From NCBI RefSeq assembly GCF_003584015.1, contig NZ_QXFM01000117.1, positions 62,001 through 126,000 on the forward strand: DNA of 64,000 bases, given 5' to 3'. Made by a program: the position numbers and the translations under genes. The stretch's first letter is position 1. Each line of letters starts with the position of its first letter. This stretch comes from Aurantiacibacter xanthus (GTDB lineage Bacteria; Pseudomonadota; Alphaproteobacteria; Sphingomonadales; Sphingomonadaceae). Below, piece after piece: positions 12,768-32,039 of the stretch. The notes under the pieces were generated by a model. That model did not search any database, was not told where the DNA came from, and was given only the letters and a program-made list of their open reading frames with translations.

Positions 12768-13679
12768 TCAGCCCGCCACGATCGGATGGCGCAGCTTGCC
12801 GATGCCGACCACCTCGGCCTCGATCACGTCACCGGGCGACAGGAATTCCTGCGGATCGCGCCCCGCGCCCACACCTTCGGGCGTCCCGGTGGCAATGATA
12901 TCGCCCGGATCGAGCGTGATGCCCTGGCTGATGTCGGCGATGAGCTCATCGACCTTGAACAGCATGTGGCTGGTGTTGTTGCGCTGCTTTTCCACGCCAT
13001 TGACCGTCAGCCACAGATCGAGCGTCTGCGGGTCGGGAATCTCGTCGGCAGTGACGATGCACGGGCCCATCGGGCAATAGCTGTCCTGCCCCTTGGAATA
13101 GATCCACTGCCCGGCACGGCGGCAATCGCGCGCGCTCATGTCGATCAGCGTGGTATAGCCGAAGACATAAGCCAGCGCCTCCTCGCGCGATACGCGCTGC
13201 GCCCGCGTGCCGATGATCGCGCCCAGTTCCACTTCCCAGTCGAGTTGCTGCGTGATGTCGGCCCGGTGCACGATGGGGTCGCCCGGCGCGATGACCGTGG
13301 TCGGCGGCTTGGAGAAGATCACCGGCTGCTTCGGCAGCTCGGGCGAGGTATCGAGCGCGCGCGAGCTTTCCGCGACATGGTCGATGTAGTTGAGGCCGAT
13401 CCCGAACACGTTCTTTTCCGGGCGCGGAATCGGCGCGAGCAGAATGACCGAAGGGAGCGGCAGCGCCCCATCGACCGGCCAGCGGCCTTTCGCCTCCTCG
13501 ATCAGGTGGCCAAGTTCCGTCACGGCAACCGGGCCAAGGCGGATGAAGTCGAGCATCCGCGAAGGTAGCGGAACGCCGGCGCGGGCACCGATACGGGCAA
13601 CGTCGACAACCGTACCGTCCACCAGCACGCCGAGGCGCGCCTCCGCTTCGACGGTCGCACGGTAAGTCACTAGGCGCAT
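12768..13679 (-). CDS. Fumarylacetoacetate hydrolase-family enzyme (probable acylpyruvate/maleylpyruvate hydrolase)
   Basis: A 303-aa FAH-superfamily hydrolase. Motifs are GIGLNYIDH (94-101), the metal-binding DWEVELG (Glu149, Glu151) and SHMLFKVDELIADISQ...GDIIATGTPEGVGAG. Members hydrolyse C-C bonds in acylpyruvates such as maleylpyruvate or fumarylpyruvate, or act on homoprotocatechuate intermediates. It lies 51 bp downstream of a gentisate-type dioxygenase on the same strand, and a maleate isomerase gene is close by, which favours cleavage of maleylpyruvate or an analogue to pyruvate and maleate. The exact substrate is inference. Confidence 0.85.
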   Translation of the reverse strand: MRLVTYRATVEAEARLGVLVDGTVVDVARIGARAGVPLPSRMLDFIRLGPVAVTELGHLIEEAKGRWPVDGALPLPSVILLAPIPRPEKNVFGIGLNYIDHVAESSRALDTSPELPKQPVIFSKPPTTVIAPGDPIVHRADITQQLDWEVELGAIIGTRAQRVSREEALAYVFGYTTLIDMSARDCRRAGQWIYSKGQDSYCPMGPCIVTADEIPDPQTLDLWLTVNGVEKQRNNTSHMLFKVDELIADISQGITLDPGDIIATGTPEGVGAGRDPQEFLSPGDVIEAEVVGIGKLRHPIVAG

Positions 13680-13730: not shown

Positions 13731-14861
13731 TCAGGATGCGAGCGGCTGGTATCCGTCATTCTCGGCCAAGCCTTCCACCCGGTATAGTCCGAGCGCGCGC
13801 ATGGTCGGCAAATCGTGGAAGGAGAACAGGCAGGCATCTTCGCTGCCCGAGCCGTTAACGTGTTCGTGCCACATCCATGAGGGGACGACAAAGATGTCCT
13901 TCTCCTTCCAGTCGAAGCGCTTGCCGCCGATGATGGAATGACCATGCCCCTTGGCGCACTGGTAGACGAAACTGCCGACTTCGCGGTGCGCCTTAGTGTG
14001 CTCGCCCGGTCGCAGGAGTTGCATGGACGCCCCCATCGTCGACATCGGCGGGCCGCCGGTGAAAGGGTTCACATAGTCCATATGAATGCCATCGTAGGGT
14101 GAGCCGTCGGAGACCTTCTCCAACCGGCACAGCGCTTCGTAAGTCGGCTCCCACTCATACTTCAGCAGCGGGGAATAGCGCTTCGACCAGGTTTCCCCGG
14201 CGGGCTTCAGGCCGGGACTACCCCAGGTCGAGGTCGAGTCGTCGATGGGGAAGCTGACGGCCTGCTGGAGGTCCGGGTGAACTTCGTAGAAATTGGCTTC
14301 GAGCGCGTTCATCAGCGGAATGTCGAGCCCGTCCTGCCAGATGCACACCGAGCCGTCTTCCGCCACCCCGTGTTCATGCCAGGTGCCGTTGGGCGTGAGC
14401 ACGAAATCGTTGCGGCCGAGCGTCATCTTGTGCCCGTCGACATTGGTGAAAGCGCCGCTGCCCTCCATGATGAAGCGCAGCGCGGAGGCTGAGTGGCGAT
14501 GGCTCGACGCGACCTCGCCCGGCCCCATGACCTGCAAACCGGTGTAGAGCCAGCCGACTGCGGCGGTGACATCTGTCCGCCCCGGATTGGCAAGGTAAAC
14601 CACACGGCGGCCAGCCTGTTCGGGACTGACCAGCTTCAAAGCGCGCAGAACATGGTCGCGCAGCCGGTCATATTCCCACAGCACCGGCACCGAGTCCGAT
14701 TCCGGTTCCCACGGCTCAATCTTGTTGGCGACGGTCCACAGCGCGCCCGCATGCTGCGATTCCAGGTCGTGGTAGAAATCCACCAGTTCCGGCGTGTCGG
14801 CCACGTTGGCGCGGCCGAGCATGTCCTCGCGGAATTGATCGTATGTGTCTGTCGCCATCAC
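13731..14861 (-). CDS. Gentisate 1,2-dioxygenase-like bicupin ring-cleavage dioxygenase
   Basis: A 376-aa bicupin dioxygenase, the size of gentisate 1,2-dioxygenases. The N-terminal cupin carries the Fe(II) ligands in SSHRHSASALRFIMEG (His121, His123) and WHEHG (His162); the second cupin (about 285-350) has SIIGGKRFDWKEKDIFVVP and WMWHEHV. Relatives cleave gentisate, 1-hydroxy-2-naphthoate or salicylate between the carboxyl- and hydroxyl-bearing carbons. It is divergent from the nitrilase gene and followed by the FAH-family hydrolase, together forming a ring-cleavage module. Substituted gentisate or salicylate substrates cannot be excluded. Confidence 0.85.
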   Translation of the reverse strand: MMATDTYDQFREDMLGRANVADTPELVDFYHDLESQHAGALWTVANKIEPWEPESDSVPVLWEYDRLRDHVLRALKLVSPEQAGRRVVYLANPGRTDVTAAVGWLYTGLQVMGPGEVASSHRHSASALRFIMEGSGAFTNVDGHKMTLGRNDFVLTPNGTWHEHGVAEDGSVCIWQDGLDIPLMNALEANFYEVHPDLQQAVSFPIDDSTSTWGSPGLKPAGETWSKRYSPLLKYEWEPTYEALCRLEKVSDGSPYDGIHMDYVNPFTGGPPMSTMGASMQLLRPGEHTKAHREVGSFVYQCAKGHGHSIIGGKRFDWKEKDIFVVPSWMWHEHVNGSGSEDACLFSFHDLPTMRALGLYRVEGLAENDGYQPLAS

Positions 14862-14903
14862 CGTGCGCCTTTCAAGCCTGCCCCGAGCATCCTATCGAAT
14901 TTC

Positions 14904-14942
14904 TTTAAGCTTAAAATATCTTGCGTCACCATGTCAACATGG
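14904..14942. promoter_or_regulatory. Two palindromes in the dioxygenase/nitrilase divergent promoter
   Basis: TTTAAGCTTAAA (14904-14915) and CCATGTCAACATGG (14929-14942) are perfect palindromes whose centres are about 26 bp apart in the only non-coding gap of this cluster. They are operator candidates, but no regulator gene is adjacent. Confidence 0.35.
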
Positions 14943-15002
14943 GGCAAGGAGCGCGGGCGATGTTCGAGGGGGCCGGATGCCCCGCAGCGAGGGAACGCGA
15001 GG

Positions 15003-16004
15003 ATGCAGCTTTCGCAATTCAAGGCCGCAACGGTCCAGACCAGCCCGGTTTTTCTCGATGCCCAGGCAACCTGCGCCAAGGCCGCCGCGCTGGTGCGCAA
15101 AGCCGCCGACAACGGCGCGGCGCTGGTGGTCTTCCCCGAGGTGTTCGTGGCGGCCTACCCCTACTGGAGCTGGATCACCGATCCGGTCTCATGCAGTCCG
15201 TGGTTCGAAAAGCTGGTGCGCGCCTCGATCCTCCTGCCCGGACCGGAAATCGAGACCGTGTGCGAAGCGGCGCGCGCGTGCGGCGTGCATGTGATCATCG
15301 GCGTCAACGAACGCAGCCCGGTCTCGCTGGGCACGCTGTACAATACGATGGTCTTCATCGGACCGGACGGCGCCATCATGGGCCGTCATCGCAAGCTGGT
15401 GCCGACCTGGGCGGAGAAGCTGACCTGGGCGCCGGGCGACGGATCGGGACTGGTCGTCTACGACACCGCGATCGGCCCCCTTGGCGGGCTGGCTTGCGGC
15501 GAGAACACCAACACGCTGGCGCGTTTCTCGCTGCTGGCGCAAGGCGAACTGGTGCATGCGGCGAGCTATATCTCGCTGCCGGTTGCTCCGCCCGATTATG
15601 ACATGGCCGAAGCAATCAAGGTGCGCGCGATGGCGCATTCGTTCGAAGGCAAGGTGTTCACGGTCGTATCGTGTTCGACCATTTCGGAAGAGATCATCGC
15701 CGCGATGGAAGGCCTGGTGCCCGATGCGCGCGAGAAGCTGCAACGCAAGAACAGCGCCTACTCCGGCGTGATCGGCCCCGATGGCCGCGAAGTGTGTGCT
15801 CCGCTGATCGACGAGGAAGGCATCGCCTATGCCGACATCGACCTGTCGCGCTGCATCCAGCCCAAGCAGATGCACGACATCATCGGCCACTATAACCGCT
15901 TCGACATCTTCGACCTGACGGTGGACCGCACCCCGCGTGCGCCCGTCACCCTGTTCGATCCGGCCCCGGAGAGCGAGGCCGAACCCGCGTCCGACGCCGA
16001 CTGA
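15003..16004 (+). CDS. Nitrilase (aliphatic/aromatic nitrilase branch)
   Basis: A 333-aa nitrilase with the complete catalytic triad: Glu46 in FPEVF, Lys131 in GRHRKLVPTW and Cys165 in GGLACGENTNTLARF. The CGEN(T/H)NTLAR signature marks true nitrilases (nitrile to carboxylate plus ammonia) rather than amidases. The ATG at 15003 follows a GAGG site; the frame is open for 510 bp upstream but that lies inside the oppositely oriented dioxygenase gene. It precedes maleate isomerase by 31 bp and so probably shares its transcript. It may produce the acid that the pathway degrades, or release nitrogen from a nitrile side group. Confidence 0.88.
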   Translation: MQLSQFKAATVQTSPVFLDAQATCAKAAALVRKAADNGAALVVFPEVFVAAYPYWSWITDPVSCSPWFEKLVRASILLPGPEIETVCEAARACGVHVIIGVNERSPVSLGTLYNTMVFIGPDGAIMGRHRKLVPTWAEKLTWAPGDGSGLVVYDTAIGPLGGLACGENTNTLARFSLLAQGELVHAASYISLPVAPPDYDMAEAIKVRAMAHSFEGKVFTVVSCSTISEEIIAAMEGLVPDAREKLQRKNSAYSGVIGPDGREVCAPLIDEEGIAYADIDLSRCIQPKQMHDIIGHYNRFDIFDLTVDRTPRAPVTLFDPAPESEAEPASDAD

Positions 16005-19183: not shown

Positions 19184-19780
19184 TCAGAGTTTGGCGATCT
19201 CCGCCTTGGCCTCGGCAATCGCGGCCTCGCGCATTTCCGGGCCGAAGCCGGTCTTGTCCGCGCGGATGATTTCGATGTCGGGAATGCCGATCAGTGCGAA
19301 GAACACCTTCAGCATGCTCTCCTGATGCTCCGCGGGATCGCCCGCTTCGTACATGCCGCCCTGAGCCGAAACCACGATCACGCGGCGGCCACCAGCCAGC
19401 CCCTGCGGGCCCGCTTCGGAATAGCTGAACGACAAGCCGGGGATCGCCAACCGGTCGAGCCAGGCCTTGAGCTGCGAGGGGACGGAGAAATTGTACATCG
19501 GCGCGCCGATCACAACGATGTCGGATGAGGTGAACTCGTCGAACACTTCCCGTTCCGCCGGCACCGCAGCCTTCATGTCATCCGTCTGCATTTCGGGCGG
19601 TGCGCGCAAGGCGCCGGTGGCAACCTCGTCCATATGCGGCAGAGGAGCCACCGCAAGGTCGCGATAGACCACCCTGGCCTCGGGATGCTTGGCCCGGAAA
19701 TGCTCGACCGCTGCTTCGGTCAGTTCGCGGCTTACCGAAGCCGGGCCGGACGTAGAGCTATCGATCTTGAGAATTTGCAT
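19184..19780 (-). CDS. azoR: FMN-dependent NADH-azoreductase
   Basis: A 198-aa flavodoxin-fold quinone/azo reductase. The FMN-binding start (KIDSSTSGPASVSRELT) and the characteristic APMYNFSVPSQLKAWLDR motif (about 93-110) identify the AzoR family, which reduces quinones and azo compounds with NADH. It follows the class III PLP enzyme by 61 bp on the same strand. A role in quinone detoxification during aromatic breakdown is likely. Confidence 0.92.
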   Translation of the reverse strand: MQILKIDSSTSGPASVSRELTEAAVEHFRAKHPEARVVYRDLAVAPLPHMDEVATGALRAPPEMQTDDMKAAVPAEREVFDEFTSSDIVVIGAPMYNFSVPSQLKAWLDRLAIPGLSFSYSEAGPQGLAGGRRVIVVSAQGGMYEAGDPAEHQESMLKVFFALIGIPDIEIIRADKTGFGPEMREAAIAEAKAEIAKL

Positions 19781-19841: not shown

Positions 19842-21089
19842 TCAGCGGCCTGCTTCGGAGCGCAGAACCTGCGCGAGGACGTCCAACAGGAAATCCACTT
19901 CGCTGCGCTTCACCGGCAGCGGCGGACGGACCTTGAGCGCAGCATTGCCCCGTCCGGCAGCGCCGATCAGAACACCCTTATCGCGCATCGCGTTGACGAT
20001 GCGCGCGGCGACCTCTCCCGACGGGGTCTGGACGCCCTGAAACAGGCCGCTGCCGCGCAGTGCTGTGATGCTGTCGTGGTCCCGGGCCAGCGCCTCCAGC
20101 CCGAGACGCAGGTAGGCCCCGGTCTCGCGGGCATTCTGCACCAGCCCTTCCTGCTCGATGACATCCAGTGTGGCGAGCGCGGCAGCGGACGAAACAGTGT
20201 TTCCGCCGAAAGTGTTGAAATAGCGCTGGTGACTGCGGAATGCCTCGGCAATCGAACGCTTGGTGACGAGCGCGGCGACCGGGTGGCCGTTGCCCATCGG
20301 CTTACCCATCGTCACGAAGTCGGGAACGATGCCGTGGCGCGAAAAGCCCCACATCCCGCCGCCGGTGCGCCCAAAGCCCGGCTGCACCTCGTCGGCGATG
20401 AACATTGCGCCCGCGGCATGAATTTCTTCCAGGGCAGGCTTGAGGAAGCCCGCCGGATCAGAAATCGCTCCGTCGCTGCCGAAGATCGTGTCGACCAGCA
20501 AGGCCGCCGGCTTCACGCCTTGCGCCTGCATCCGATCGAGGCATTCGCGCACCAGCCGGCCAAATTCCTGCTCGTCCTGCATCTCCAGCGGCACCTGGAT
20601 GGTGAAGACGTCACGCCCGGTCGGCAAGCCGGTGACTGGCGACATGCCTTGCAGCAGATCGGTCGTGCCGTGATAGGCACAGTCGGTCACGATCACGCCC
20701 GTGCCGCCGGTCAGCATCCGGGCAATGCGGATCGCCAGATCGTTGGCCTCGCTGCCCGAATTGGTCAGGATCACCGACCCCATATCCGAGGGCATGGTAG
20801 CAAGCAGCCGTTCGGCAAGCTCGACCGGCTTGTCGGTCAGATAGCGGGTGTGGGTGTTCAGCTTGCGCGCCTGCTCTACGGTGCGTTCGACGATATAGGG
20901 GTGGCAGTGTCCCGCCACCGGCACGTTATTGTAGGCATCCAGATATTTGCGCCCCTGCGCATCGTGGAGCCACACGCCCTCGCCCCGCACGACATGGATG
21001 GGATGTTCGTAAAACAGGCGGTAGCTGGGCGAAAGCACCGCGTCGCGCCGTGCCTGCAACAGTTCGCTATCGGTTATCTCGTTTTGCAA
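19842..21089 (-). CDS. Class III PLP enzyme, aminotransferase/phospho-lyase type
   Basis: A 415-aa fold-type I PLP enzyme. The PLP lysine is K263 in VTMGKPMGNGHPVA, with Asp233 in FIADEVQPGFGRTG binding the ring nitrogen. Motifs YNNVPVAGHCHP, LNTHTRYL, TNSGSEANDLA and YFNTFGGN resemble, from memory, the ethanolamine-phosphate and phosphohydroxylysine phospho-lyases more than ordinary transaminases. These enzymes eliminate phosphate and ammonia from a phosphorylated amino alcohol, giving an aldehyde or ketone. A kinase of the matching type is encoded 2.8 kb upstream. An ordinary omega-transaminase remains possible. Confidence 0.8.
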   Translation of the reverse strand: MQNEITDSELLQARRDAVLSPSYRLFYEHPIHVVRGEGVWLHDAQGRKYLDAYNNVPVAGHCHPYIVERTVEQARKLNTHTRYLTDKPVELAERLLATMPSDMGSVILTNSGSEANDLAIRIARMLTGGTGVIVTDCAYHGTTDLLQGMSPVTGLPTGRDVFTIQVPLEMQDEQEFGRLVRECLDRMQAQGVKPAALLVDTIFGSDGAISDPAGFLKPALEEIHAAGAMFIADEVQPGFGRTGGGMWGFSRHGIVPDFVTMGKPMGNGHPVAALVTKRSIAEAFRSHQRYFNTFGGNTVSSAAALATLDVIEQEGLVQNARETGAYLRLGLEALARDHDSITALRGSGLFQGVQTPSGEVAARIVNAMRDKGVLIGAAGRGNAALKVRPPLPVKRSEVDFLLDVLAQVLRSEAGR

Positions 21090-21186: not shown

Positions 21187-23679
21187 TCAGAACTCGCGGT
21201 TCAGCGTGACCGCCCATTGCCGCGGCGCGCCCGGGCTGACGGAAACCGTGCCCGACTGCATCGACTGGTCGAAACGCGTGTTCTCGTAGTATTTGTCGCC
21301 GAGGTTGGTGACCTCCAGCGAGACCTTCCAATCCCGAGCAGCACTGGCCCAGGTCAGCCGCGCGTTGGCGAGGAAGTACTCGTCGATCCGGTTGTTGGGC
21401 CCGTTGACCGCCTCGGTGTAAACCTCGCTTTGATAGGAACCGTCCAACCGCAGGCTCAGCAGACCGGCATCGCCATCGAAGACATCGTACTGGAGCCCGG
21501 CGCTCGCCTTCCATTCAGGCGTAAACGGGGTGACCATATCCAGCGTAATGCCAGACCCCGGAGCGACATTCCGGTACTTGAAATCGAGATAGCTGCCGGA
21601 AAAGTCGACCGACAGACTGTCTGCCGGGAAAATGAACAGTTCCGCTTCCAATCCGCGCACCCTCGCCGTGCCGCCGTTATTCGGTTGAAAACAGGGTGTG
21701 ATCGGACAGGCAAGCAAGTTTACAATGATGTCTTTATAATCATTGGCGAATGCAGCGAGATTGACCCGCAACCTCCTGTCGAGAAGATCGGTTTTCAGCC
21801 CCACTTCGTAGGACGTGATGGTCTCCGGTGCGAAGGAGGACAGCTGCCCGACATCCTGCGGAACACCGTTGACCGGGTCGATCTGGCCATTCGCCACCGG
21901 CAGGACCGTTCCGGGGGCGAAGAAGGGGCGAGGGTTCACCCCACCCGCACGATACCCCGTACCGATCTGGCCATAGGCGAGCACTGCATCGGAGAAGCGG
22001 TAATCGACAGCCACACGCCAGTCGAACCGGTCCCCTTTGTACTGGTCGGTCAAGCCATTGAGACCGACCTGCGAACAGTTGGGTGCGTTTGCGGGATCGA
22101 ACGGCGCGAGGCCCGGCAGGCAGGGCGTGCCGGGCACCGTACCATCCGGATTGCGGCGGAAATACTCCTGCCCCTTCTCGTCCCATGACTGGCGGACACC
22201 GGCTGAAACACGCAAACTTTCGGTAAGCTTGAAATCACCGTTCAGGAACAGCGCTTTGGAGTTGCTGTCGCTATCTTCCGGGCCGTGCAGGAAATTCAGA
22301 CCGGCATAGGTCAGATCGAAGCGGCCGGAGAAGGTGGTCGTGCCTTTGAAGTAAAATCCGCCAGCCGTGAGGTTGAGCCGCTGGTCGAGAAACGATGCGC
22401 TGGCCCGCAGTTCCTGTGTGAACTGCCAGTTGTCCATGGTCTGCAACGCAATCTGGTTCTGGATCGGTGAGCCGTCGGCATCTTCTGCAAAGCTCGCCTT
22501 GTACGCGCGGTATGCGGTAACCGATTTCAGCTCCAGATTCTCGTTAGCCCGCCAGGTAATATTACCCGACAACCCGTAGGAATCGAGGTGCGAAATAATC
22601 GGAATGCTGAACGGTGTGAAGGGATCTTGCGCAGTGGGCTGACGCGTATCGCTGAAGGTCGAGTAGGTCCAGTACGGCTGCGGCCCGGCGCTGTCGCAGG
22701 AGTTCACGCCATAGGGCACGAAGCGGCAGTCATAGGGCACGGGCGCCGTTGCCGGGTTGCCATCGTCGATCGTCAGCCGCGGGTTGTTGGCATAGCGCAG
22801 CACGTCCCCGCCAGCTTCCGACTTGTCGCGGGTGATGTCGCCAATCAGGCCGATCTCAAGGTCCGAGGCCGGCTCCCAGTTGAGATAGAGCCGCCCCGCA
22901 ACTAGCGACTTGCCGCCCAGTGTGCCCAGCTCGCACCCACCGTTCAGCGTGGCGCTGGCGGGCACGCCCGACCCCGGATGGGTGCAGGCATAGTCCATCC
23001 GCTTGATAAAACCGTCGCTGTTCTTCGAGACGACAGACACACGTGCCGCCAGCGCGTCGGTGACGGCGAAGTCGGCCATCGCCCTGCCGTCAAGCCGGTT
23101 CTGCGAGCCGACCGTGACCGATACCAGCCCGGACCCGTCGCCTGTCGGCTTGTTCGAGAATATCTTGACCGCACCGCCGATAGAGTTGCGTCCGGCCAGC
23201 GTCCCTTGTGGGCCCCGCAGCACTTCGACACGGCCAATATCCAGCAAATCCACCAGCGAGCCGGTAATGGTCGAATAATACACGTCGTCGACGTAGATGC
23301 CGACACCGGGCTCCAGCGCGGGAATGAAGTCCGACTGGCCCACGCCGCGGATGAAGGCGAGCATGGTCGAACCATAGCCCTGACCTTGCGGGGCCAATGT
23401 CACGTTCGGAGCCTGACGGGCGATCTCGTAAACGCTGGTCTGACTGCGTGCCTCAAGCATTTCGCCGGTCACTGCAGTGATGGCGATCGGCGTGTCCTGC
23501 AAATTTTCGCTGCGCATCGTGGCGGTAACGATGATGGTGCTGGCCTGATTGTCTGCCGACGCACTCTGCGCGCTGTCCTGCGCCAAGACCTGGCCGCTGC
23601 ACAACACCGACGAAATCGCCGTGGCCAGAGCAAGATTGTTACGGGATAAGCGAAAGCCCTTATGCTGAAAATGGAACAT
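21187..23679 (-). CDS. TonB-dependent outer-membrane receptor
   Basis: An 830-aa receptor. The signal peptide ends near GQVLAQD, followed by a TonB-box-like STIIVTATMRSENLQDTPIAITAV, plug motifs (VEVLRGPQGTLAGRNSIGGAV) and a barrel ending in NREF. The ATG at 23679 has an ideal AGGGGGG site; an ATG 27 bp further up lacks one. The palindrome GTTATCAACGATAAC lies 70 bp upstream of the start. It stands between the kinase operon and the PLP enzyme gene, so it is likely the uptake route for the substrate of that pathway. Confidence 0.9.
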   Translation of the reverse strand: MFHFQHKGFRLSRNNLALATAISSVLCSGQVLAQDSAQSASADNQASTIIVTATMRSENLQDTPIAITAVTGEMLEARSQTSVYEIARQAPNVTLAPQGQGYGSTMLAFIRGVGQSDFIPALEPGVGIYVDDVYYSTITGSLVDLLDIGRVEVLRGPQGTLAGRNSIGGAVKIFSNKPTGDGSGLVSVTVGSQNRLDGRAMADFAVTDALAARVSVVSKNSDGFIKRMDYACTHPGSGVPASATLNGGCELGTLGGKSLVAGRLYLNWEPASDLEIGLIGDITRDKSEAGGDVLRYANNPRLTIDDGNPATAPVPYDCRFVPYGVNSCDSAGPQPYWTYSTFSDTRQPTAQDPFTPFSIPIISHLDSYGLSGNITWRANENLELKSVTAYRAYKASFAEDADGSPIQNQIALQTMDNWQFTQELRASASFLDQRLNLTAGGFYFKGTTTFSGRFDLTYAGLNFLHGPEDSDSNSKALFLNGDFKLTESLRVSAGVRQSWDEKGQEYFRRNPDGTVPGTPCLPGLAPFDPANAPNCSQVGLNGLTDQYKGDRFDWRVAVDYRFSDAVLAYGQIGTGYRAGGVNPRPFFAPGTVLPVANGQIDPVNGVPQDVGQLSSFAPETITSYEVGLKTDLLDRRLRVNLAAFANDYKDIIVNLLACPITPCFQPNNGGTARVRGLEAELFIFPADSLSVDFSGSYLDFKYRNVAPGSGITLDMVTPFTPEWKASAGLQYDVFDGDAGLLSLRLDGSYQSEVYTEAVNGPNNRIDEYFLANARLTWASAARDWKVSLEVTNLGDKYYENTRFDQSMQSGTVSVSPGAPRQWAVTLNREF

Positions 23680-23748: not shown

Positions 23749-23763
23749 GTTATCAACGATAAC
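23749..23763. promoter_or_regulatory. Tetracycline-operator-like site 1
   Basis: GTTATCAACGATAAC is a 6-3-6 perfect inverted repeat in the AT-rich gap upstream of the TonB receptor gene. It is identical over all 15 bp to the site at 30010-30024. It shares the TATCnnnGATA core of the tetracycline operator (TATCATTGATA), and a TetR-like gene is nearby. Confidence 0.65.
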
Positions 23764-23859
23764 GCGTATTTTTTTGGCAACAAGACACTAATTTGACCAT
23801 CAGTGTTTATTTTCTGCAACAGACGTATTTTCTCGAAAAATTAGCTATACGATTGATTT

Positions 23860-24921
23860 TTAAATCAAAAAATCACCATCAGCCTGCAAGGCAAGGCCTT
23901 GCGCGAAGACGATTCGCCATTCGAAGAATTCTCGCCCGAATGCCGCGAAGTGGGCTCCATCGGGATTCTGCTGGCGATACCAGCTGGTCAGGATCAGATT
24001 TTGCACGATTCGCCCCGCGACCAACCACGGCAGGAGCGCAACTTCGTGCTCGTCGAGCGGATTTTTCTTCCTGTATGCCGTAACAAATTCATGCATGGCG
24101 TCAGGCGCGGACTCGGCCGTAGAGAGCTGTCCGACTACGCCAACCGCAACGTCGGCGATCCGATAGGTGTGGATGGCATCGCCAAAGTCGATGATACCAG
24201 TGATCCGCGCCGGATCGTCCGGGTCGACAATGATGTTCCCGCCATTCATGTCGTTGTGCACAAAGCGTCGGGGCAACTGTGCCAGACGCGGCGACACGCT
24301 CCTGGAATAGCGCTCCAGAAAGCTCTCGACGAAATCGGCAAAATGCAGCGTCTGGATCTGCGGCATCAGCAACCGAAGCTCCAGCAGATGCCGCAGGTCC
24401 CAGATCAGCGGGCGATGCATGTAAGGGTGCGAGAAGCCCTCCAGAGCAATGGCCAGCTCCCCCAACAAAGTGCCACAATGGCGATGCTGGCGCGGGCTGC
24501 GCTCGGCACTGAAGGCCGGCACGCCGTCCAGGAAGCTATAGGCGATGGCCGCCCGCTCCCGCCCCGCCTCGTCGACGAAATGCGTGATCGCTTGACCTGC
24601 CGCATTGGCCGCCAACCGCGGCACCGGCAGGCCCGGCGCGCGCTGCTCCAGATAGGCAAGCACCGCAGCCAGCAACTCGGCTTCTTGGGGCGGCTGCGCG
24701 GCACCGAAGATTTTAAAGACCAGCGACTTTCCAGCGGTGTCGCTGACCCGATAGTTCTGGTCACGCTCTGCACTAAGAGCGCTAAAGGCTCCGCCGAACC
24801 CGAACCGGCTGCGCAGCACGTCACGCACCAGGTCTTCGCCGACAATGTGACTGTCTGCCTTGCCCAAGGCGGGCAACAATGCCTCCAGCGAAGAAGACGT
24901 TTGCAGAGCCCCTGTGCTCAC
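23860..24921 (-). CDS. Aminoglycoside-phosphotransferase-fold kinase (amino alcohol/hydroxylysine kinase-like)
   Basis: A 353-aa kinase of the APH/choline-kinase fold. The catalytic loop is HNDMNGGN (His222, Asp224) and the metal-binding motif is IIDFGD (Asp245), both complete; the Lys of the N-lobe is in LVFKIFG. Its start is GTG and overlaps the upstream SDR stop by 4 bp (GTGA), so translation is coupled. With a phospho-lyase-type PLP enzyme close by, phosphorylation of a hydroxyl on an amino alcohol or hydroxylated amine is the best guess. Antibiotic resistance is unlikely in this setting. Confidence 0.82.
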   Translation of the reverse strand: MSTGALQTSSSLEALLPALGKADSHIVGEDLVRDVLRSRFGFGGAFSALSAERDQNYRVSDTAGKSLVFKIFGAAQPPQEAELLAAVLAYLEQRAPGLPVPRLAANAAGQAITHFVDEAGRERAAIAYSFLDGVPAFSAERSPRQHRHCGTLLGELAIALEGFSHPYMHRPLIWDLRHLLELRLLMPQIQTLHFADFVESFLERYSRSVSPRLAQLPRRFVHNDMNGGNIIVDPDDPARITGIIDFGDAIHTYRIADVAVGVVGQLSTAESAPDAMHEFVTAYRKKNPLDEHEVALLPWLVAGRIVQNLILTSWYRQQNPDGAHFAAFGREFFEWRIVFAQGLALQADGDFLI

Positions 24922-25754
24922 TGTGCCGCCTCGCCTGCAAAACTGCTGCGCATCCAGGCGAAGAACGCATCCTCCGGCAGGCTGCGCCGCTTGGCGAGAA
25001 TGGCCTGCGTATCACCGCCGATGGGGTAGCGCAGGCGATCACTCGTGTCGCATGCCGCCGCCAAGGTGGCCTCGGCAGTTTCCTCGATGGTGGTAAGGTC
25101 GGACGGATAGTTGGCCCGCATGGATGCCTGAAAGGCCGCCACTCCCTTGTCGTAGGGCGCGGGCGTCAGACCGCCGGCACGATCCTGCGCGCTCTCGCCG
25201 AAGCGGGTATCGGGCGCGAGGCCCGGCTCCAGCAACCGCACTGTGATGCCGAACGGCCGCACCTCATAGGCCAGCGCTTCGGAAAAGCCCTCGATCGCCC
25301 ACTTGCTCGCGCCATAGACCGACATGAACGGCATCGGCGCAATCGCCATGCTCGATGTCATATTGAGGATCGCGCCCCCGCCGCTTTCCCTCATCACGGG
25401 AATGACGGCACGGCACATGGCCATGGTGCCGAACAGATTGGCCGAGAAGATGTCGTGTATCAGCGCGTCGGGGGTAAACTCGATAGCCGACATGGCCCCG
25501 ATCCCGGCGTTGTTCACCAGCACATCGATGCCGCCGAAGGCCTGCTGCGCCTGCACCACCGCAGTGTCGATGCTGGCCTGATCGGTCACGTCGAGTTGCA
25601 CCAGCCGCAAACGCGCATGCGCTTCGAACAGCGCCGGGTCAGGGCGGCGCATGCTCGCCACCACGTTCCAGCCCGCAGCGAGAAACCTCTGGGCAATTGC
25701 CTTGCCAAATCCTGACGATGCGCCGGTGACGAGTACCGTTTTGGCCATGCTCAT
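24918..25754 (-). CDS. Classical short-chain dehydrogenase/reductase
   Basis: A 278-aa SDR with all standard features: TGASSGFG (10-17), NNAG (81-84), Ser134/135, and Tyr147-x3-Lys151 (YGASK). It would oxidise an alcohol or reduce a carbonyl with NAD(P)H. The first ATG is very close to the AGGAG site; the second Met (residue 3) is better spaced, so the protein may start at 25748. It sits 36 bp below an oxygenase gene and overlaps the kinase gene, in one operon. Confidence 0.88.
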   Translation of the reverse strand: MSMAKTVLVTGASSGFGKAIAQRFLAAGWNVVASMRRPDPALFEAHARLRLVQLDVTDQASIDTAVVQAQQAFGGIDVLVNNAGIGAMSAIEFTPDALIHDIFSANLFGTMAMCRAVIPVMRESGGGAILNMTSSMAIAPMPFMSVYGASKWAIEGFSEALAYEVRPFGITVRLLEPGLAPDTRFGESAQDRAGGLTPAPYDKGVAAFQASMRANYPSDLTTIEETAEATLAAACDTSDRLRYPIGGDTQAILAKRRSLPEDAFFAWMRSSFAGEAAQ

Positions 25755-25790
25755 ATCTCCTGCAGAGGGGCTGGGGCGTTGCTGGCGAGA

Positions 25791-27020
25791 TCAGCCGTTC
25801 TGGAAGGCCGCCATGGCGGCAGCGACACTGCCCTGCTCGCTTTGCAGGACAGGATGGGTCCGCAGCACGGCGACGTTGCGCAGGAAACGGCCCATGGGCG
25901 TGCCCGCCTTGGCCGATGCCGACGTGCCGGCGGCACGGAACAGCAGGTCGATTGCCTCCCACGCCATTTGCACGCAGCGCTGCGCAATCTGGTTGAGCCG
26001 CATGCGTTTCACATCGTCGAAGGGGATGCCCTCCTCCTTCCACTGCCTTGCATAGCCCATGTACTCTTCGCCCGAGCGCACGAGAGCCGCTTCGGCGGTG
26101 GAGATCAGTGACAGCGCCTGCCCGTATTGCAGTTGCGCCACCGGGTCGTGGCACATCTGCCTGAATGGCGGCGCTTTCGACTTCTTGCTGCGAAGGATCT
26201 CCTCGAACAGATCGAGCGCACCGCGCGCCGCGCCCACTGCCACGGCAGCGGTTTCCCCGATCAGGAACGGGCCGATAAGCCCCCAGTACATCGGGTTCTC
26301 ATGCAAGGGAACTTCGGTCACGAGCGGCTCGGCGCCGCGCTCCATGCCGGACACGCGAAGCACGCGCTCGCTCGGCACGAAGACATCTTCGACATCGACG
26401 CGCTTGGACCCGGTGCCCCGCATCCCCATCACGGACCAGTCGTCCACGATCGTGCAGTCCTTCATGTCGACGATGGCCTGGATCAACCCGCCATCCTCAC
26501 CTTCGACCCTCGCCAGCCCCATGAAGTGGGTGCCAATGTCGATGCCGGAAGCGGAAACCCAGTGGTTCGATACCCGGTATCCCCCCTCAACGGGGACCGC
26601 CGTGCCCAGCGGGGTCAAGGCGCCGGGGCAGCGGAAGTCGCCCGCTTCCCCGAAGACTTCGATCTGCGTCGAAGCCGGATAGCGCGCCAGCACCACCGGA
26701 TGCCCGCCAACGAGCGACGTCACCCAGCCCGTTTCGCTACAGCCCCGCGCGATCTCGATGATGACCTTGTAGAAGTCGTCGATACCGAATTCGTAGCCAC
26801 CGAAAATGCGCGGCTGCACCATCCGGAAGAACCCTCCGGCAATCAGCTCCGCGGCGATTTCCGGCGTAACGCATCCACCCGCCTCGCAGTCGGCCTGGGC
26901 CGCGCGCAACTTCGGCCGCATCGCCCTTGCCCGCTCCAGCAGAATTTCCGGCGTCAGACCGGGTTCCGGCTGCGGTATCGCCTTTGGTTTCCTCACAGGC
27001 TCCATCAGCTTCGTCGCCAT
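25791..27020 (-). CDS. Flavin-dependent monooxygenase, acyl-CoA dehydrogenase fold (HpaB/HsaA/DszC-like), copy B
   Basis: A 409-aa protein of the acyl-CoA dehydrogenase superfamily with the C-terminal domain seen in two-component flavin monooxygenases. A helical N-domain (PEILLERARAMRPKLR), the central beta-domain with DDWSVMGMRGTGSK (about 207-220) and a helical C-domain are present. It is a paralogue of the gene at 28648-29898; both start with a PQPEPGLTP/AQPEPGLTP segment. These enzymes use reduced flavin from a separate reductase to hydroxylate aromatics or oxidise N- or S-containing substrates. No reductase gene is adjacent, so it must be supplied elsewhere. Confidence 0.82.
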   Translation of the reverse strand: MATKLMEPVRKPKAIPQPEPGLTPEILLERARAMRPKLRAAQADCEAGGCVTPEIAAELIAGGFFRMVQPRIFGGYEFGIDDFYKVIIEIARGCSETGWVTSLVGGHPVVLARYPASTQIEVFGEAGDFRCPGALTPLGTAVPVEGGYRVSNHWVSASGIDIGTHFMGLARVEGEDGGLIQAIVDMKDCTIVDDWSVMGMRGTGSKRVDVEDVFVPSERVLRVSGMERGAEPLVTEVPLHENPMYWGLIGPFLIGETAAVAVGAARGALDLFEEILRSKKSKAPPFRQMCHDPVAQLQYGQALSLISTAEAALVRSGEEYMGYARQWKEEGIPFDDVKRMRLNQIAQRCVQMAWEAIDLLFRAAGTSASAKAGTPMGRFLRNVAVLRTHPVLQSEQGSVAAAMAAFQNG

Positions 27021-27086
27021 CAGAACAGTCCTTCCATTCGTTCAAAGCGCTGCCACGGCCGCAACCGCGCAAGGCGCTGCAGAGGT

Positions 27087-28595
27087 TCACCCAAGTGTCT
27101 TTTCGAGAGGCGGACGCGCCGCCACATAGCCCAGCCGCCGTTCGATCAGCGCCGCGAGCCGGATGGTGGTGCGATCCTCCATCGCCGGGCCGATAAGTTG
27201 CAGGCCCAGCGGCACCTGCCCTTCCCGGCGCGGCGCGGGAATCACCGTCGAGGGCAGGTTCGCGACAGTGGCAAGGCCGGGCCAAGACAGCTGCGAGAGA
27301 TAGACCACGTCGCGATCATCCACCTGACGGCGACGATAGAGCTGGGCCTTCATGCCCTCGCCCGAGAGGTCGTGCGGGAAAGCTGCCGAGGGGAAGACCG
27401 GGCAGACCATGGCATCCCATTCGCGGAAAAAACGCGCCCAGCCGTCGCAGAGCCTGGCCCGCGCTTCTTCCAGCCTGCCCCACCTGAGCGGATCGGGTTT
27501 CGCACAGCCTTCGAGAATTCTGCCGAACGTCAGGGCGTCTTCCGGCAGGTTGGCAAGATCTTCTGCCGTAAGCTCGAAGTCCTGCCCCCCGAGAACGATC
27601 GAGAACAGCATGTTCACATAGGTTTCGAGCGCAGCCTGCGGATCGAAGTCGGGCCTCGCGGTCTCGCTGACCTTGGCCCCTTGCGCGCGCAGCTCGCCGG
27701 CGAGCCGGGCGATTGCCTCCTGCGTTTCGGACGTGGCCGCATAGGGCAGATCCTCGCTCCACAGTGCGACGCGGAAGTCGGACAGCTTTTCATGCCGCGA
27801 CGGTGCCACGGTGGTGGAAAAGGCAGGCACCCTTTCCGGACCCGGCGCGGTCAGGATATCGAGCGCCAGCTCCAGATCGCAAGCGCTGCGTGCCATCGGA
27901 CCGGCAACGGCCAGCTGCGGCTCTTCCATCACTCCCGGCATCGGCGGCACGTGCCCTCGGGTGGGCACAAGGCCGTAGCTCGACTTGTGCCCGAATACGC
28001 CGCACATATGCGCCGGGATGCGGATCGACCCTCCTATGTCGCTGCCCAGTTCCAGCGGGGTTAGGCCCGCACTAAGCGCCGCCGCCGCCCCGCCCGAGGA
28101 GCCGCCCACGGTGAGGTCCAGCGACCACGGGTTGCGCGTCAGGCCATAGATCGGATTGTCGGTCTGGTGATCGGCACCGGCGATGGGGATATTGGTCTTG
28201 CCGAAGATGACCCCGCCCGCCGCACGCAATCGCCCGACCGCAACAGCATCTTCGGACGAAATGTTGTCGGCAAGCGGCGGCAACCCGCAGCTGGTGCGCA
28301 TTCCGATTGCGCTGTAGGTTTCCTTTACCGTGAAAGGCAAACCCGCAAGGGCCCCTGCCGAACCACCGCTGGATAGAGCCTTGTCAGCAGCACGGGCAGC
28401 ATCGAAGGCCCGGTCGAGATCAAGCGCGACGATGGCATTGATCGGCGCATTCAGCCTCTCATATCGGTCCAAAAACAGCTGGAGCAGCTCCTCCGAACCG
28501 ATCTTGCGCGTGCCCAGCATGGCAATGAGGTCGCCTGCGGTCGCATAGGCCAGATCATCAGCGGATGCAGCGGCCCTCATGTCTAAATCACTCAT
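27087..28595 (-). CDS. Amidase (amidase signature family)
   Basis: A 502-aa amidase-signature hydrolase. The Ser-cisSer-Lys triad is visible as Lys91 (FTVKET), Ser166 in GGSSGGAAAALSAG and nucleophile Ser190 in LGSDIGGSIRIPA. I chose the ATG at 28595, which has a GGGGGGAG site; the longer frame to 28628 lacks one. It cleaves a carboxamide to acid and amine. It lies between two paralogous flavin monooxygenase genes in one operon, suggesting that an amide is hydrolysed before or after oxidation. Confidence 0.9.
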   Translation of the reverse strand: MSDLDMRAAASADDLAYATAGDLIAMLGTRKIGSEELLQLFLDRYERLNAPINAIVALDLDRAFDAARAADKALSSGGSAGALAGLPFTVKETYSAIGMRTSCGLPPLADNISSEDAVAVGRLRAAGGVIFGKTNIPIAGADHQTDNPIYGLTRNPWSLDLTVGGSSGGAAAALSAGLTPLELGSDIGGSIRIPAHMCGVFGHKSSYGLVPTRGHVPPMPGVMEEPQLAVAGPMARSACDLELALDILTAPGPERVPAFSTTVAPSRHEKLSDFRVALWSEDLPYAATSETQEAIARLAGELRAQGAKVSETARPDFDPQAALETYVNMLFSIVLGGQDFELTAEDLANLPEDALTFGRILEGCAKPDPLRWGRLEEARARLCDGWARFFREWDAMVCPVFPSAAFPHDLSGEGMKAQLYRRRQVDDRDVVYLSQLSWPGLATVANLPSTVIPAPRREGQVPLGLQLIGPAMEDRTTIRLAALIERRLGYVAARPPLEKTLG

Positions 28596-28647
28596 AGCTG
28601 CGAACTCCCCCCGCCAACCCGCGCGCAAACGCTGACTGATCTCGCGA

Positions 28648-29898
28648 TCAACGTCCGAGTCCGAACTGAACCCGGCCCATCACGCCCGCCGCGTCTTCGA
28701 GCTGAAGCACGGCATGCGTTTTCAGCACCGCGAAATTGCGCAGGATGCGGGTCAGCGGATGCCCCTCTCGCGCAGCTGTCGAGGTTCCGCCGGCGTGGAA
28801 GATCATCTGGAACGCCTCCCAGCCGAGCTGCGCGCTCTGCACGGCGATGGCACGCAGGCGGATCGAGCGGGCATCGTCGAAGGGAATACCCTCCTCCTGC
28901 TCCTGGCGGGCATATTCCATGAACTCGTGCCCGGCGCCGATCAGGGCAGATTCCGCCATGGCCACCAGACGCGCCGCAGTGCCGTAGTTGCGCTGATGGA
29001 TCGGGTCGTTGAACTTCTCGAGATAGGGCGGATAGGACGCCTTCTTGTGCCAGAGAATGTCCTCGTAATGGTCGAGCGCGGCGCGCGCCGTCCCCACCGC
29101 CACCGAGGCCGTCTGGCTGATCAGGAACGGTGAAATCGCGGTGGAGTACATAGGGTTATCCGAAGTCGTGCACTTCAGGCTCAAGGGCTCCGCGCCGCGC
29201 GCCATGCCGTGACAACGCATGACCCGGTGCTCGGGCACGAAGATATCCTCGGCCACCACCTTCTTTGAGCCGGTGCCGCGCATGCCGATAACGTCCCAGT
29301 CATCGACGATTTCGTATTGGCTGCGATCCACCAGGATCTGGGCAGGCACCGGTTCCCCCTCGCCCTGTATCATCACCAGCGGCATGAAGTGGGTGGCGAT
29401 ATCCACGCCCGACCCGTTGCGCCATCCGGCGGTGACACGGTAGCCGCCCGGCACCGGAATGGCCTTGCCCGGCGGCGCAAAAGACCCCGCCGCACGAAAC
29501 TCGCCAGTCGCGCCATAGGCTTCACGCTGCGCCTGTTCGGAAAACTTCCCAAGAACAACGGGTTGCCCCGCCACGAGAGCAAGAACCCAGCCGATTTCCG
29601 TGCTGCCGCGCGCCAGCTCCATCATCACGCGATAGTAGGTCGCCACATCGAACTCGTAGCCGCCAAACCGCTCCAGCTGGATGATCCGATAGAAGCCGGC
29701 AGCAACGAGTTCGTCGTTGATGTCCTGCGGAACGCGCCCCTGCCGCTCGCAGTCCTCTTCCGCAGCGCGTAGCCGGGGGCGAAGGTCCTGCGCTCGTCGT
29801 AGCAGGTCAGACGGCGTCAGGCCCGGCTCGGGCTGCGCGATTGCGTCCGTCACCTGCGCATCCGGCACGTGTTCGATTGCGGAAATGTCTGTTGCCAA
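28648..29898 (-). CDS. Flavin-dependent monooxygenase, acyl-CoA dehydrogenase fold, copy A
   Basis: A 416-aa paralogue of the monooxygenase at 25791-27020, with the same PEPGLTPSDLLRRA start segment and DDWDVIGMRGTGSK core. The start is TTG, supported by a strong GGGAGGT ribosome site 7 bp upstream. It is the first gene of the operon that continues with the amidase, the second monooxygenase, SDR and kinase. Two phased tetO-like sites lie 90-126 bp upstream. The reaction is not predictable beyond flavin-dependent oxygenation or dehydrogenation. Confidence 0.82.
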   Translation of the reverse strand: MATDISAIEHVPDAQVTDAIAQPEPGLTPSDLLRRAQDLRPRLRAAEEDCERQGRVPQDINDELVAAGFYRIIQLERFGGYEFDVATYYRVMMELARGSTEIGWVLALVAGQPVVLGKFSEQAQREAYGATGEFRAAGSFAPPGKAIPVPGGYRVTAGWRNGSGVDIATHFMPLVMIQGEGEPVPAQILVDRSQYEIVDDWDVIGMRGTGSKKVVAEDIFVPEHRVMRCHGMARGAEPLSLKCTTSDNPMYSTAISPFLISQTASVAVGTARAALDHYEDILWHKKASYPPYLEKFNDPIHQRNYGTAARLVAMAESALIGAGHEFMEYARQEQEEGIPFDDARSIRLRAIAVQSAQLGWEAFQMIFHAGGTSTAAREGHPLTRILRNFAVLKTHAVLQLEDAAGVMGRVQFGLGR

Positions 29899-29988
29899 GA
29901 CGATACCTCCCGATGGCAGCCCACCTCATGCTCCGGCGCCCCAGACGAGCCACCAGCTCCCCGCCAGCCACACCTGTCATGCATCTGT

Positions 29989-30003
29989 GTTAGCAGCGAT
30001 AAC
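29989..30003. promoter_or_regulatory. Tetracycline-operator-like site 2 (one mismatch)
   Basis: GTTAGCAGCGATAAC differs from the perfect 15-bp repeat at one arm position (G for T) plus one spacer base. It starts 21 bp from the next site, two helical turns, so two dimers could bind the same face of the DNA. Confidence 0.5.
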
Positions 30004-30009
30004 AATAGA

Positions 30010-30024
30010 GTTATCAACGATAAC
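30010..30024. promoter_or_regulatory. Tetracycline-operator-like site 3
   Basis: GTTATCAACGATAAC, identical to the site at 23749-23763, lies in the AT-rich gap between the TetR gene and the monooxygenase-amidase operon. It is followed by ATGT, giving a 19-bp stretch that is partly repeated at 46911-46929. Confidence 0.65.
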
Positions 30025-30193
30025 ATGTCTGTCAAACGGAATTTTTCTCCACATGGCACAGCCATGCAGATGACCCACAATAACCCTTGTTTTTCAGAAT
30101 ATTACCGCATTACAAAAATAGCTGCGGCGCGTCAGAACGCCACGCTATAGCGGTGTCGTCAGCGATTTTGGCAGGGCAGATATGCCCGGGGAC

Positions 30194-30811
30194 TCAGGCG
30201 TCGGCGCTGCTGTCCTGATTGAGCTTCAGCCGCAAGCCTTCGATCATTACGTCGAGCGCGAATTCAAATGCTTCACAGCGATTGTAATCTTCGGGCGAGC
30301 GGTCATCACGCTGCCGCTCGCTTTCCTCGTGCAGCTGCCAGCCAACCATCAGGCGGGTGATGAACTTCGATGCGAAGACCGCCCGATCATGGGTGAAGCC
30401 GGCATCCTGCAGCGGCTTCGAGATCAGATCCAGCGGCTCGATCGGCAGCGATGCCGCAATAAGCCGGGCGCCATCGCGATGGCTCATCACAGCGGCAAAG
30501 GAAGCCCGCGCGGTCGCCCGCAACCACTCATCCCACTGCTCATCGGCTCGCGGTTGACGGATAACCGGCAGCAACAGAGCCGCTGCCATGTGATCGAGCA
30601 GCGCCGCCTTGCTGGGGAAGTGCCGGTAGAGAGCAGGCCCTTCGACCCCGAGCTGATCGCCAATGCGCCGCGTCGTCAACTTGTCGAAGCCAACCTCGTC
30701 CAGCAAGTCCAGCGCCGCCTTGACGATGATCGGGCGAGTCAGCGGCCCACGGTCCTGCGTCGCGTTCGATCGCCCCACGGGCCCTGGCAAAACTGTCGCA
30801 TCCTCGCTCAT
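30194..30811 (-). CDS. TetR-family repressor resembling the tetracycline repressor subgroup
   Basis: A 205-aa repressor. The N-terminal helix-turn-helix (about 25-71) reads LTTRRIGDQLGVEGPALYRHF, close to the DNA-recognition helix of TetR, and the effector domain keeps SHRDGAR (near 115) and FEFALDVMIEGLRLKL near the C-terminus, also as in TetR. It lies upstream of the oxygenase-amidase operon on the same strand, with two tetO-like palindromes in the gap. It therefore probably represses this operon and the TonB receptor and responds to the pathway substrate. No tetA-like pump is next to it. Confidence 0.85.
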   Translation of the reverse strand: MSEDATVLPGPVGRSNATQDRGPLTRPIIVKAALDLLDEVGFDKLTTRRIGDQLGVEGPALYRHFPSKAALLDHMAAALLLPVIRQPRADEQWDEWLRATARASFAAVMSHRDGARLIAASLPIEPLDLISKPLQDAGFTHDRAVFASKFITRLMVGWQLHEESERQRDDRSPEDYNRCEAFEFALDVMIEGLRLKLNQDSSADA

Positions 30812-31100: not shown

Positions 31101-32039
31101 ATGAAGGAACGGCTGCGCGAACTCGACCTCAACCTCCTGGTGATCCTCGATGCCTTGTTTCGCTGCGCCAATGTGTCGCGCGCGGCGGAGGAATTGCAGA
31201 TGTCGCAGAGCGCGGTCAGCCACGCGCTCAAGCGGCTGCGCGTCCTGTTCGATGACGAGCTGTTCATCCGCGCGCGTGAGGGCATGGCCCCTACTCCGAA
31301 GGCCTCGCAACTCTCGGGCTACGTGGCCGAGATCGTGCGCCTCGCGCGGCTCACCATGCTTTCGGGGCAAACCTTCGATCCTGCCGCCTCCGACCGCACG
31401 CTGAGCGTCGCGCTCGGCGATGCCGGCGACATGGTGATGCTGCCCGATCTGGCGCGGCATATCCGCGATGCTGGATCACACCTGCGCATCTCCTCGATCT
31501 CGTGCTCCGCCGAGGAAGCCGTGCCGCTGCTCGCTTCGGGCAAGCTCGATGTCTACGTCGGCAACATGCAGGGCTCGACGTCGGATATCCTGTGCCAGCG
31601 GCTCTACGAAGATCGCCTCGTCATCATCGCCTCCAGCAAGCACAGGGTGCGCAAGCGGATGAACTTCGAGCAGTATCAGCAGAGCGAGCACATCGCGGTG
31701 CAAATGCGGACCAAGCCAAGCGCGCGCAACGTGGTGACCAATCTGTTCGAAGGCCAGGGCGTGATCCGCAAGGCCACCATCGAAACGCCGCACCTCGCCT
31801 CGGTGCCGCTGGTGCTCGAACGCAACGATCACCTGATCTCGACCGTGCCGATCTCGCTCGCCGAGTATTTCCAGAAGACAGCCAAACTGAAGATCATCGA
31901 GCCCGACTTCTACCTGCCCAATATCGAAATCAGCCAGTACTGGCACCGGCGCTACAACAACGATTCCTTCGTCACCTGGGCACGCCACGCCATCCGCGAC
32001 CTGTTCCAGAACCGCCCGGTCAAATTCGGGCTCGGCTGA
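31101..32039 (+). CDS. LysR-family transcriptional regulator (NodD/PcpR-like branch)
   Basis: A 312-aa LysR regulator. The N-terminus RELDLNLLVILDALFRCANVSRAAEELQMSQSAVSHALKRLR is the typical winged HTH (about 4-65), followed by a periplasmic-binding-like effector domain. It is divergent from TetR across 289 bp of non-coding DNA and precedes the MalY/PatB-type gene on the same strand by 203 bp. Its target could be that gene or the nearby transferase operon. Confidence 0.88.
   Translation: MKERLRELDLNLLVILDALFRCANVSRAAEELQMSQSAVSHALKRLRVLFDDELFIRAREGMAPTPKASQLSGYVAEIVRLARLTMLSGQTFDPAASDRTLSVALGDAGDMVMLPDLARHIRDAGSHLRISSISCSAEEAVPLLASGKLDVYVGNMQGSTSDILCQRLYEDRLVIIASSKHRVRKRMNFEQYQQSEHIAVQMRTKPSARNVVTNLFEGQGVIRKATIETPHLASVPLVLERNDHLISTVPISLAEYFQKTAKLKIIEPDFYLPNIEISQYWHRRYNNDSFVTWARHAIRDLFQNRPVKFGLG

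Follow-up and report, generated by a model that had tools for sequence, protein, structure and literature searches.

The window, a stretch of 64,000 nucleotides from contig NZ_QXFM01000117.1 of Aurantiacibacter xanthus, contains a catabolic gene cluster with short palindromes in two of its promoter regions, which we discuss here as predicted operators of a neighboring TetR-type repressor. The whole block is located on the minus strand, in the order repressor, operators, monooxygenase 1, amidase, monooxygenase 2, short-chain dehydrogenase, kinase, operator, TonB receptor, aminotransferase-fold enzyme and azoreductase-like protein (Table 1). The perfect 15-mer GTTATCAACGATAAC occurs twice, at 23749-23763 and 30010-30024, and a third palindrome with one mismatch (GTTAGC in one half) is found at 29989-30003, 21 bp start-to-start from the 30010 copy, just as an earlier note on this DNA had described. 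The same note had placed the sites in the promoter gaps of the TonB receptor gene and the oxygenase-amidase operon, which agrees with a distance of 70 bp to the ATG of the TonB receptor gene (23679) and with distances of 91 and 112 bp, for the 29989 and 30010 sites, to the TTG start of monooxygenase 1 (29898). Its statement that the core equals that of the tetracycline operator tetO holds for TATCnnnGATA, whereas the flanks are different, being TTATC..GATAA in the window and CTATC..GATAG in the tetO of Tn10.

Table 1. Predicted operators, a possible promoter hexamer and genes of the catabolic cluster in the window.
Feature	Position	Strand	Remarks
TetR-type repressor, TetR_N + TetR_C_1	30194..30811	-	Gly/Ala/Arg at TetR positions 38/40/43
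TTGACA, possible -35 hexamer of operon promoter	30030..30035	-	TTGAC[CG] 6-7 nt before first palindrome in 5 orthologous loci
Operator 1 of monooxygenase operon (predicted)	30010..30024	.	GTTATCAACGATAAC; starts 5 nt downstream of TTGACA hexamer
Operator 2 (predicted)	29989..30003	.	GTTAGCAGCGATAAC; 21 bp from operator 1 (24 bp in five Novosphingobium loci)
Flavin-dependent monooxygenase 1, acyl-CoA-dehydrogenase fold, HsaA-like	28648..29898	-	TTG start
Amidase	27087..28628	-	longest open reading frame; scanned as 27087-28568
Flavin-dependent monooxygenase 2, HsaA-like	25791..27020	-	domain/family scans
Short-chain dehydrogenase	24918..25754	-	not found between corresponding genes of orthologous loci
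APH-fold kinase	23860..24921	-	matches N-terminal part of PRK06148
TonB-receptor gene operator (predicted)	23749..23763	.	same letters as operator 1; 70 bp upstream of ATG
TonB-dependent receptor	21187..23679	-	domain/family scans
Class-III aminotransferase-fold enzyme	19842..21089	-	phospho-lyases are nearest solved structures (5g4i, 6tor)
FMN-dependent NADH-azoreductase / flavin reductase-like protein	19184..19780	-	below NCBIfam cut-offs

We considered the possibility that the palindromes are chance repeats, or copies of a small mobile repeat, that play no regulatory role. The perfect pattern is present in 52 of 397 genomes of the family, mostly as a single copy and nearly always in genomes without the cluster, as might be expected from such an origin. 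However, GTTATCNNNGATAAC with up to two mismatches matches the window five times, as compared to an expected number of 0.41, and none of 100 shuffles gave five matches; those at 2658 and 46911, with two mismatches each, look like background. Across all 4,377,143 bases of the genome there are exactly two perfect copies, both inside this cluster, and the three copies of the relaxed pattern GTTANCNNNGNTAAC in the 4.38-Mb genome are all (3/3) located in two promoters of the cluster, 6 kb apart. Since the perfect pattern is present in only 52 of the 397 family genomes, and mostly once, two perfect copies 6 kb apart are far from chance, as the earlier note had argued, and the genome-wide search that it had proposed did not uncover many copies inside genes. 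The operator columns are furthermore more conserved than their surroundings in related loci (see below), and we give next to no credence to an explanation by chance or mobile repeats.

Relatives were sought in species genomes by short peptide patterns, which provides a lower bound, and the scan gave 44 stretches and eight relatives. Three of the relatives (two from Nocardia and one from Companilactobacillus, with 29-31% identity) were dropped from the comparison, and the other five are Novosphingobium loci, among them L055 of N. hassiacum and L053 of N. taihuense, the TetR proteins of which are 64-65% identical to the window repressor in the best segments and 61-62% over the whole alignment. 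The five loci are co-linear for monooxygenase 1, amidase, monooxygenase 2, kinase, TonB receptor, phospho-lyase-like enzyme, azoreductase-like protein and repressor, with 62-74% identity to the window for the enzymes and the receptor and 42-46% for the kinase, whereas a short-chain dehydrogenase between these genes is seen only in the window. The repressor gene comes last in the Novosphingobium loci and first in the window, and it may therefore be self-controlled within the operon in the former, but probably not in the latter. Paired palindromes precede monooxygenase 1 in all five loci (5/5), 24 bp apart rather than 21 bp as in the window, and TTGAC[ACG] is located 5-7 nt before the first palindrome in 6/6 loci.

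In the gap-free columns of a six-row promoter alignment, which includes two near-copies, 22 of 30 operator columns are invariant as compared to 13 of 80 others (Fisher test, 3e-8). A weight matrix was built from ten operon-promoter sites, omitting L054 as a near-copy of L053, and it assigned scores of 22.1-24.1 to the three sites in the window and at most 10.0 to everything else therein. In four of the Novosphingobium loci (L052, L053, L055 and L056) it identified a site of lower score (14.7-16.7) preceding the TonB gene and a site inside the kinase gene (15.2-18.3), as well as an additional match in one of them (L056:44, 18.3), while the best other matches scored 12.4 (L056:4567) and 12.2 (L049:1577). 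L054 was scanned by mismatch count only, and likewise has a site with three mismatches before the TonB gene. In L052, L053, L055 and L056, a conserved GTTTCTGGTGCTAAC immediately precedes the repressor gene; it scored 9.1, which is lower than the unrelated matches of 10.0-12.4, and we do not claim it as an operator.

The tandem palindrome and close orthologs of the repressor were also found to co-occur. The tandem palindrome is present in two of the 397 family genomes, and these are the same two that encode a TetR ortholog of 60% identity or more; two other genomes contain TetR homologs with 39-41% identity at E <= 1e-30. In a class-wide sample, a TetR match at E <= 1e-40 was obtained in one of 385 genomes, the window's own, and a search of plasmids with the TetR protein gave none of at least 60% identity among the 5000 matches listed. 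The copies of GTTANCNNNGNTAAC in the genomes of the relatives fall within the cluster in 2/2, 2/2, 2/2, 2/3 and 2/4 cases. The outside copies are one in G361, the genome that contains the contig of L055 and, around its cluster, the neighborhood L050, and two in G779; the G361 copy lies within an open frame of 256 amino acids and the first G779 copy within one of 170 amino acids, whereas the second is in no frame of at least 120 amino acids.

Such co-occurrence bears on the question of whether another regulator might bind the palindromes, for example the LysR-type protein at 31101-32039 or a more distantly encoded one. The LysR-type gene is divergent from the repressor gene, and the generic LysR box is T-N11-A, which the palindrome TTATCAACGATAA fits. 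Yet no relative of this gene was identified in the stretches that retain the palindromes, namely the five orthologous loci (about 20.5 kb) and 18 kb of L050, to which the search within these genomes was confined. The TetR gene stays with the palindromes in all of those loci, and their letters fit the rule for TetR residues described below. Since its gene does not accompany the cluster in the stretches compared, the LysR-type protein is disfavored as the binder, and we judge it very unlikely that this or a distant regulator recognizes the sites.

The repressor protein contains a TetR_N domain (PF00440, E 6.8e-15) and a TetR_C_1 domain (PF02909, 39.7 bits; cut-off 21), and the core TAnCNNNGnTA is present in a promoter next to its gene, which is a trait of the TetR_C_1 subgroup that emerged from this analysis and not from a published definition. 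It is nevertheless not a tetracycline repressor proper according to the equivalog model PRK13756 (TetR), to which it scored 124 bits against a cut-off of 265. Of the residues involved in tetracycline binding, His64 is missing and Asn82, Phe86, His100 and Arg104 are replaced in the alignment to class A, and instead of an adjacent divergent tetA gene there is a LysR-type gene on one side and catabolic genes on the other. Tetracycline was rejected as the ligand in view of these lost contacts and of the equivalog score, and nothing supports a link to this drug. Because these residues have been lost, the ligand should be another compound, perhaps from an aromatic-amide pathway, which makes the repressor a candidate sensor for such a compound.

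The residues for DNA recognition are differently preserved. The equivalents of Arg28, Pro39, Tyr42 and His44 are invariant in all six repressors, from the window and the five Novosphingobium loci, whereas Gly replaces Gln38, Ala replaces Thr40 and Arg replaces Trp43 in 6/6. According to a study of TetR, Arg28 bonds to G+2, Gln38 bonds to A+3 and Tyr42 packs on T+4, while tetO binding is lost in R28A or Y42A and 8.5-fold weaker in Q38A (PMC7102968). Consistently with a Gly at the position of Gln38 in the six repressors, base pair 3, which Gln38 reads in TetR, is variable in their operators. In 13 sites, from the paired promoters including those of L054 and from the TonB promoter of the window, all 26 half-sites read GTTANC, with T in 18, C in 5, G in 2 and A in 1 at the free base pair. 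These sites were collected with at most one mismatch per 15-mer. The same criterion yields 15 sites over the window and the five loci together, and the 13 do not include L056:44, located upstream of the palindrome pair, or L052:4899, which falls within the kinase gene. Over all 15 sites, eight of ten departures are at base pair 3, several of them shared by descent, and two are at base pair 6.

A relationship between residues and operator letters was also observed across more distant homologs. We collected all 60 matches to the profile of the six repressors at E <= 1e-12, including the window's and G361's own repressor loci, from 38 of the 397 genomes, which is a lower bound with up to seven first-look candidates scored per genome; in its own genome, the window repressor is the sole match at this threshold (7 of 13 first-look candidates scored). 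The core TAnCNNNGnTA, leaving base pairs 3, 6 and 7 free, was searched within 330 nt before the helix codon, and was identified upstream of 38 of 60 homologs, where first-order Markov shuffles would give 1.0. As controls, we examined segments no longer than this (cut short at locus ends where necessary), and the core occurred in 0/60 cases inside the gene and in 1/60 downstream. The homologs with a core include 38 of the 52 with Tyr42 and none of the eight without it.

Rows with identical residues and operators were merged into 29, and a row was counted as soon as one of its sites carries the base in both halves. Ala40 is paired with T at place 2 (TTAnC) in 24/24 rows and Ser or Thr40 with C (CTAnC) in 5/5 (P 8e-6), Ala, Thr or Pro38 goes with A at place 5 (TTAAC) in 19/19 rows and Gln or Ser38 with T (TTATC) in 4/5, the fifth being mixed (P 1e-4), and Lys43 goes with an outer G in both halves in 2/2 rows as compared to 0/27 of the others (P 2.5e-3). 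These tests ignore the family tree, and one and the same table served to derive the rule and to test it. Among the half-sites, the exceptions are one G and one T beside 36 A for Ala38 and one G beside 9 C for Ser40, all of which trace back to a single asymmetrical site, the first hit in L122 and seemingly a chance match, and furthermore one G beside 7 T for Ser38 and one outer G in eight for His43. The sites of the window and G361 are not part of the table, since both repressor genes are without a site directly upstream, and the window residues Gly, Ala and Arg fit G-T-T-A-N-C, which is the half-site observed.

We find it somewhat more plausible than its opposite that the TetR_C_1 repressors of this family follow a three-residue code. 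Residue 38 would specify base pair 3 (Gln or Ser for T, Ala, Thr or Pro for A, and Gly for any base), residue 40 would specify base pair 6 (Ala for T and Ser or Thr for C), and Lys43, along with Arg43 in the window's group, would specify an outer G at base pair 7. The window repressor would then be a natural Gly38 form, the operators of which drift freely at base pair 3, and an auxiliary operator inside the kinase gene may act in Novosphingobium. In agreement with this, Thr40Ala in the Tet repressor reportedly shifted recognition at base pair 6 from GC to AT in a study from 1988. The rule is directly testable, and if true, the operators of many TetR-type repressors in the family would be readable from three residues, making local regulons predictable.

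We consider it very probable, on the basis of these sequence comparisons, that the three palindromes are operators of the 30194-30811 repressor, which would repress both promoters sterically until a pathway compound releases it. The computations show the sites and their placement, their conservation with the cluster and the repressor, and the agreement between repressor residues and operator letters; the binding itself, repression rather than activation, the ligand and the pathway chemistry are inferred. The suggestion in the earlier note that the TetR-like protein regulates these genes thereby gains support from co-occurrence, column conservation, the kept Arg28 and Tyr42 and the residue-to-base rule. 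In the most likely mechanism, the spacer and the -10 region of the operon promoter would be covered by a repressor dimer on operator 1, and the start region by another dimer on operator 2, so that RNA polymerase would be kept out, and a third dimer would act likewise at the TonB-receptor promoter. Release of the repressor may follow from the binding of a pathway compound other than tetracycline to its C-terminal domain, and uptake through the TonB receptor would therefore be switched on together with breakdown by the two flavin monooxygenases, the amidase, the kinase, the phospho-lyase-like enzyme and the flavin reductase-like protein. This would assign a probable regulator, operator and set of target genes to a catabolic cluster.

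Alternatively, the repressor might act at these sites mainly as a roadblock or an activator rather than by covering a promoter. Operator 1 of the window is close behind TTGACA, yet no good -10 hexamer is seen, as this alternative would allow. In four of the five Novosphingobium loci (two of them near-copies), however, the right half-site GATAAC lies 16 nt behind TTGAC[CG], the distance being 15 in L052, and therefore overlaps the -10 position. We regard a roadblock or activator as unlikely and favor the hypothesis of steric repression.

Several observations weigh against this interpretation of the palindromes as operators of a steric repressor. A scan for sigma-70 promoters at both promoter places in the window found no full promoter, and the spacing from TTGACA to GATAAC as a -10 hexamer would be only 14. 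The repressor's own promoter in the window is without an operator in both the mismatch and the matrix scans, whereas 38 of the 60 homologs have one, and the other 22 lack a core site upstream. The TonB site in Novosphingobium is degenerate, of the GATACCACTGCTAAC type with three mismatches, and is found about 100 bp upstream of the gene, compared to 70 bp in the window, and its scores of 14.7-16.7 are little above the unrelated 12.2 and 12.4. The one-mismatch sites L056:44 and L052:4899 depart at base pair 6 and not at base pair 3. L053 and L054 are near-copies, and the five loci therefore amount to fewer than five independent cases. Finally, the relaxed pattern read backward as a control gives two copies in the own genome versus three forward, and 0, 2, 2, 4 and 3 copies versus 3, 2, 2, 4 and 2 in G361, G777, G778, G779 and G780. 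Since the control is similar in count, the number of copies alone shows nothing; it is their placement that does.

The enzymes provide some hints about the pathway. Both monooxygenases obtained their best scores with the models for HsaA and p-hydroxyphenylacetate hydroxylase, albeit below the cut-offs of those models, and the 3-HSA hydroxylase is nearest to monooxygenase 1 among solved structures. The kinase and the aminotransferase-fold enzyme match opposite ends of one fused NCBIfam model, PRK06148, and no solved structure matched the kinase at E <= 1e-5. A reasonable but unproven scheme is that an aromatic amide is hydroxylated, the amide is split, the freed amino alcohol is phosphorylated and the phosphate is eliminated. 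We also considered a chloramphenicol-type substrate, on which the literature search yielded nothing useful among the papers listed. A carbon-nitrogen hydrolase gene (14493-16004) and a fumarylacetoacetate-hydrolase-type gene (12768-13679) elsewhere in the window could belong to the same or a neighboring catabolic route. Adjoining the cluster in N. hassiacum (L050, 10999-15598) are a further TonB receptor gene and a gene of the tryptophan-halogenase family, and in N. jiangmenense (L052, 11346-13786) an intradiol dioxygenase gene and a muconate-cycloisomerase-type gene.

The kind of system is known; what is new is the operator variant, the conserved regulon and the residue-to-base rule. The similarity to TetR/tetO (classes A, B, D and G) includes the combination of TetR_N and TetR_C_1, with TetR of classes A and G as the best solved relatives, the recognition residues and operator core described above, and paired operators at a promoter, as in Tn10. 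Unlike TetR with Gln38, Thr40 and Trp43, although Ala40 is also present in classes A and G, the window repressor has Gly38, Ala40 and Arg43, its operator is GTTANC with a relaxed base pair 3 rather than tetO, and it adjoins a catabolic cluster and not an efflux pump. The excerpted account of PheR in Sphingobium sp. SHPJ-2, a repressor of phenanthrene uptake and catabolism, describes a similar arrangement in which a local repressor makes both a catabolic operon of a sphingomonad and TonB-linked uptake dependent on the substrate (PMC13273656). In contrast to the window repressor, PheR belongs to the IclR family and has a GCAACG motif, and its effects on TonB genes are, in that excerpt, derived from transcriptomics and not from an identical operator in the receptor promoter (PMC13273656). 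No report of this cluster or of the residue-to-base rule was found in the open-licence literature, among the matches listed.

The operator-type palindrome inside the kinase gene is found at L053 4915, L055 4916, L056 4912 and L052 4899, about 455 bp before the TonB-promoter site. It occupies the same codons in the four loci tested (4/4), and was retained in none of 200 synonymous shuffles, a test that ignores shared ancestry. Because 14 of 1063 windows of 15 nt in the kinase gene are equally conserved and a codon-run test gave P = 0.09, this site is only a lead, and it may represent an auxiliary operator in the Novosphingobium loci.

Other repressors in the set of homologs present patterns of their own. 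A TetR homolog of 39% identity in L077, of which L018 is nearly the same stretch, has three similar sites (1470, 2764 and 2913), with GTTTTCACGGATAAC before its own gene and GATATCAATGATAAC and GTTTGCATTGATAAC near the starts of a minus-strand frame of 248 amino acids and the next plus-strand gene, and these are perhaps a second local regulon. In L083, L084 and L085, from three genera, a repressor similar to TetR proper (helix VQQPALYWHF) is accompanied by the identical tandem palindromes TTTATCAACGATAAG / CTTATCGGTGATAAA, 30 bp apart, which is suggestive of a shared mobile determinant of the tetracycline type. Many proteins with Ala38 and Trp43 (for example in L090, L092, L095, L098, L099 and L118) have a regular palindrome, [CT]TTAACnnnGTTAA[AG], about 120-140 nt before the helix codon, and are apparently self-regulated repressors.

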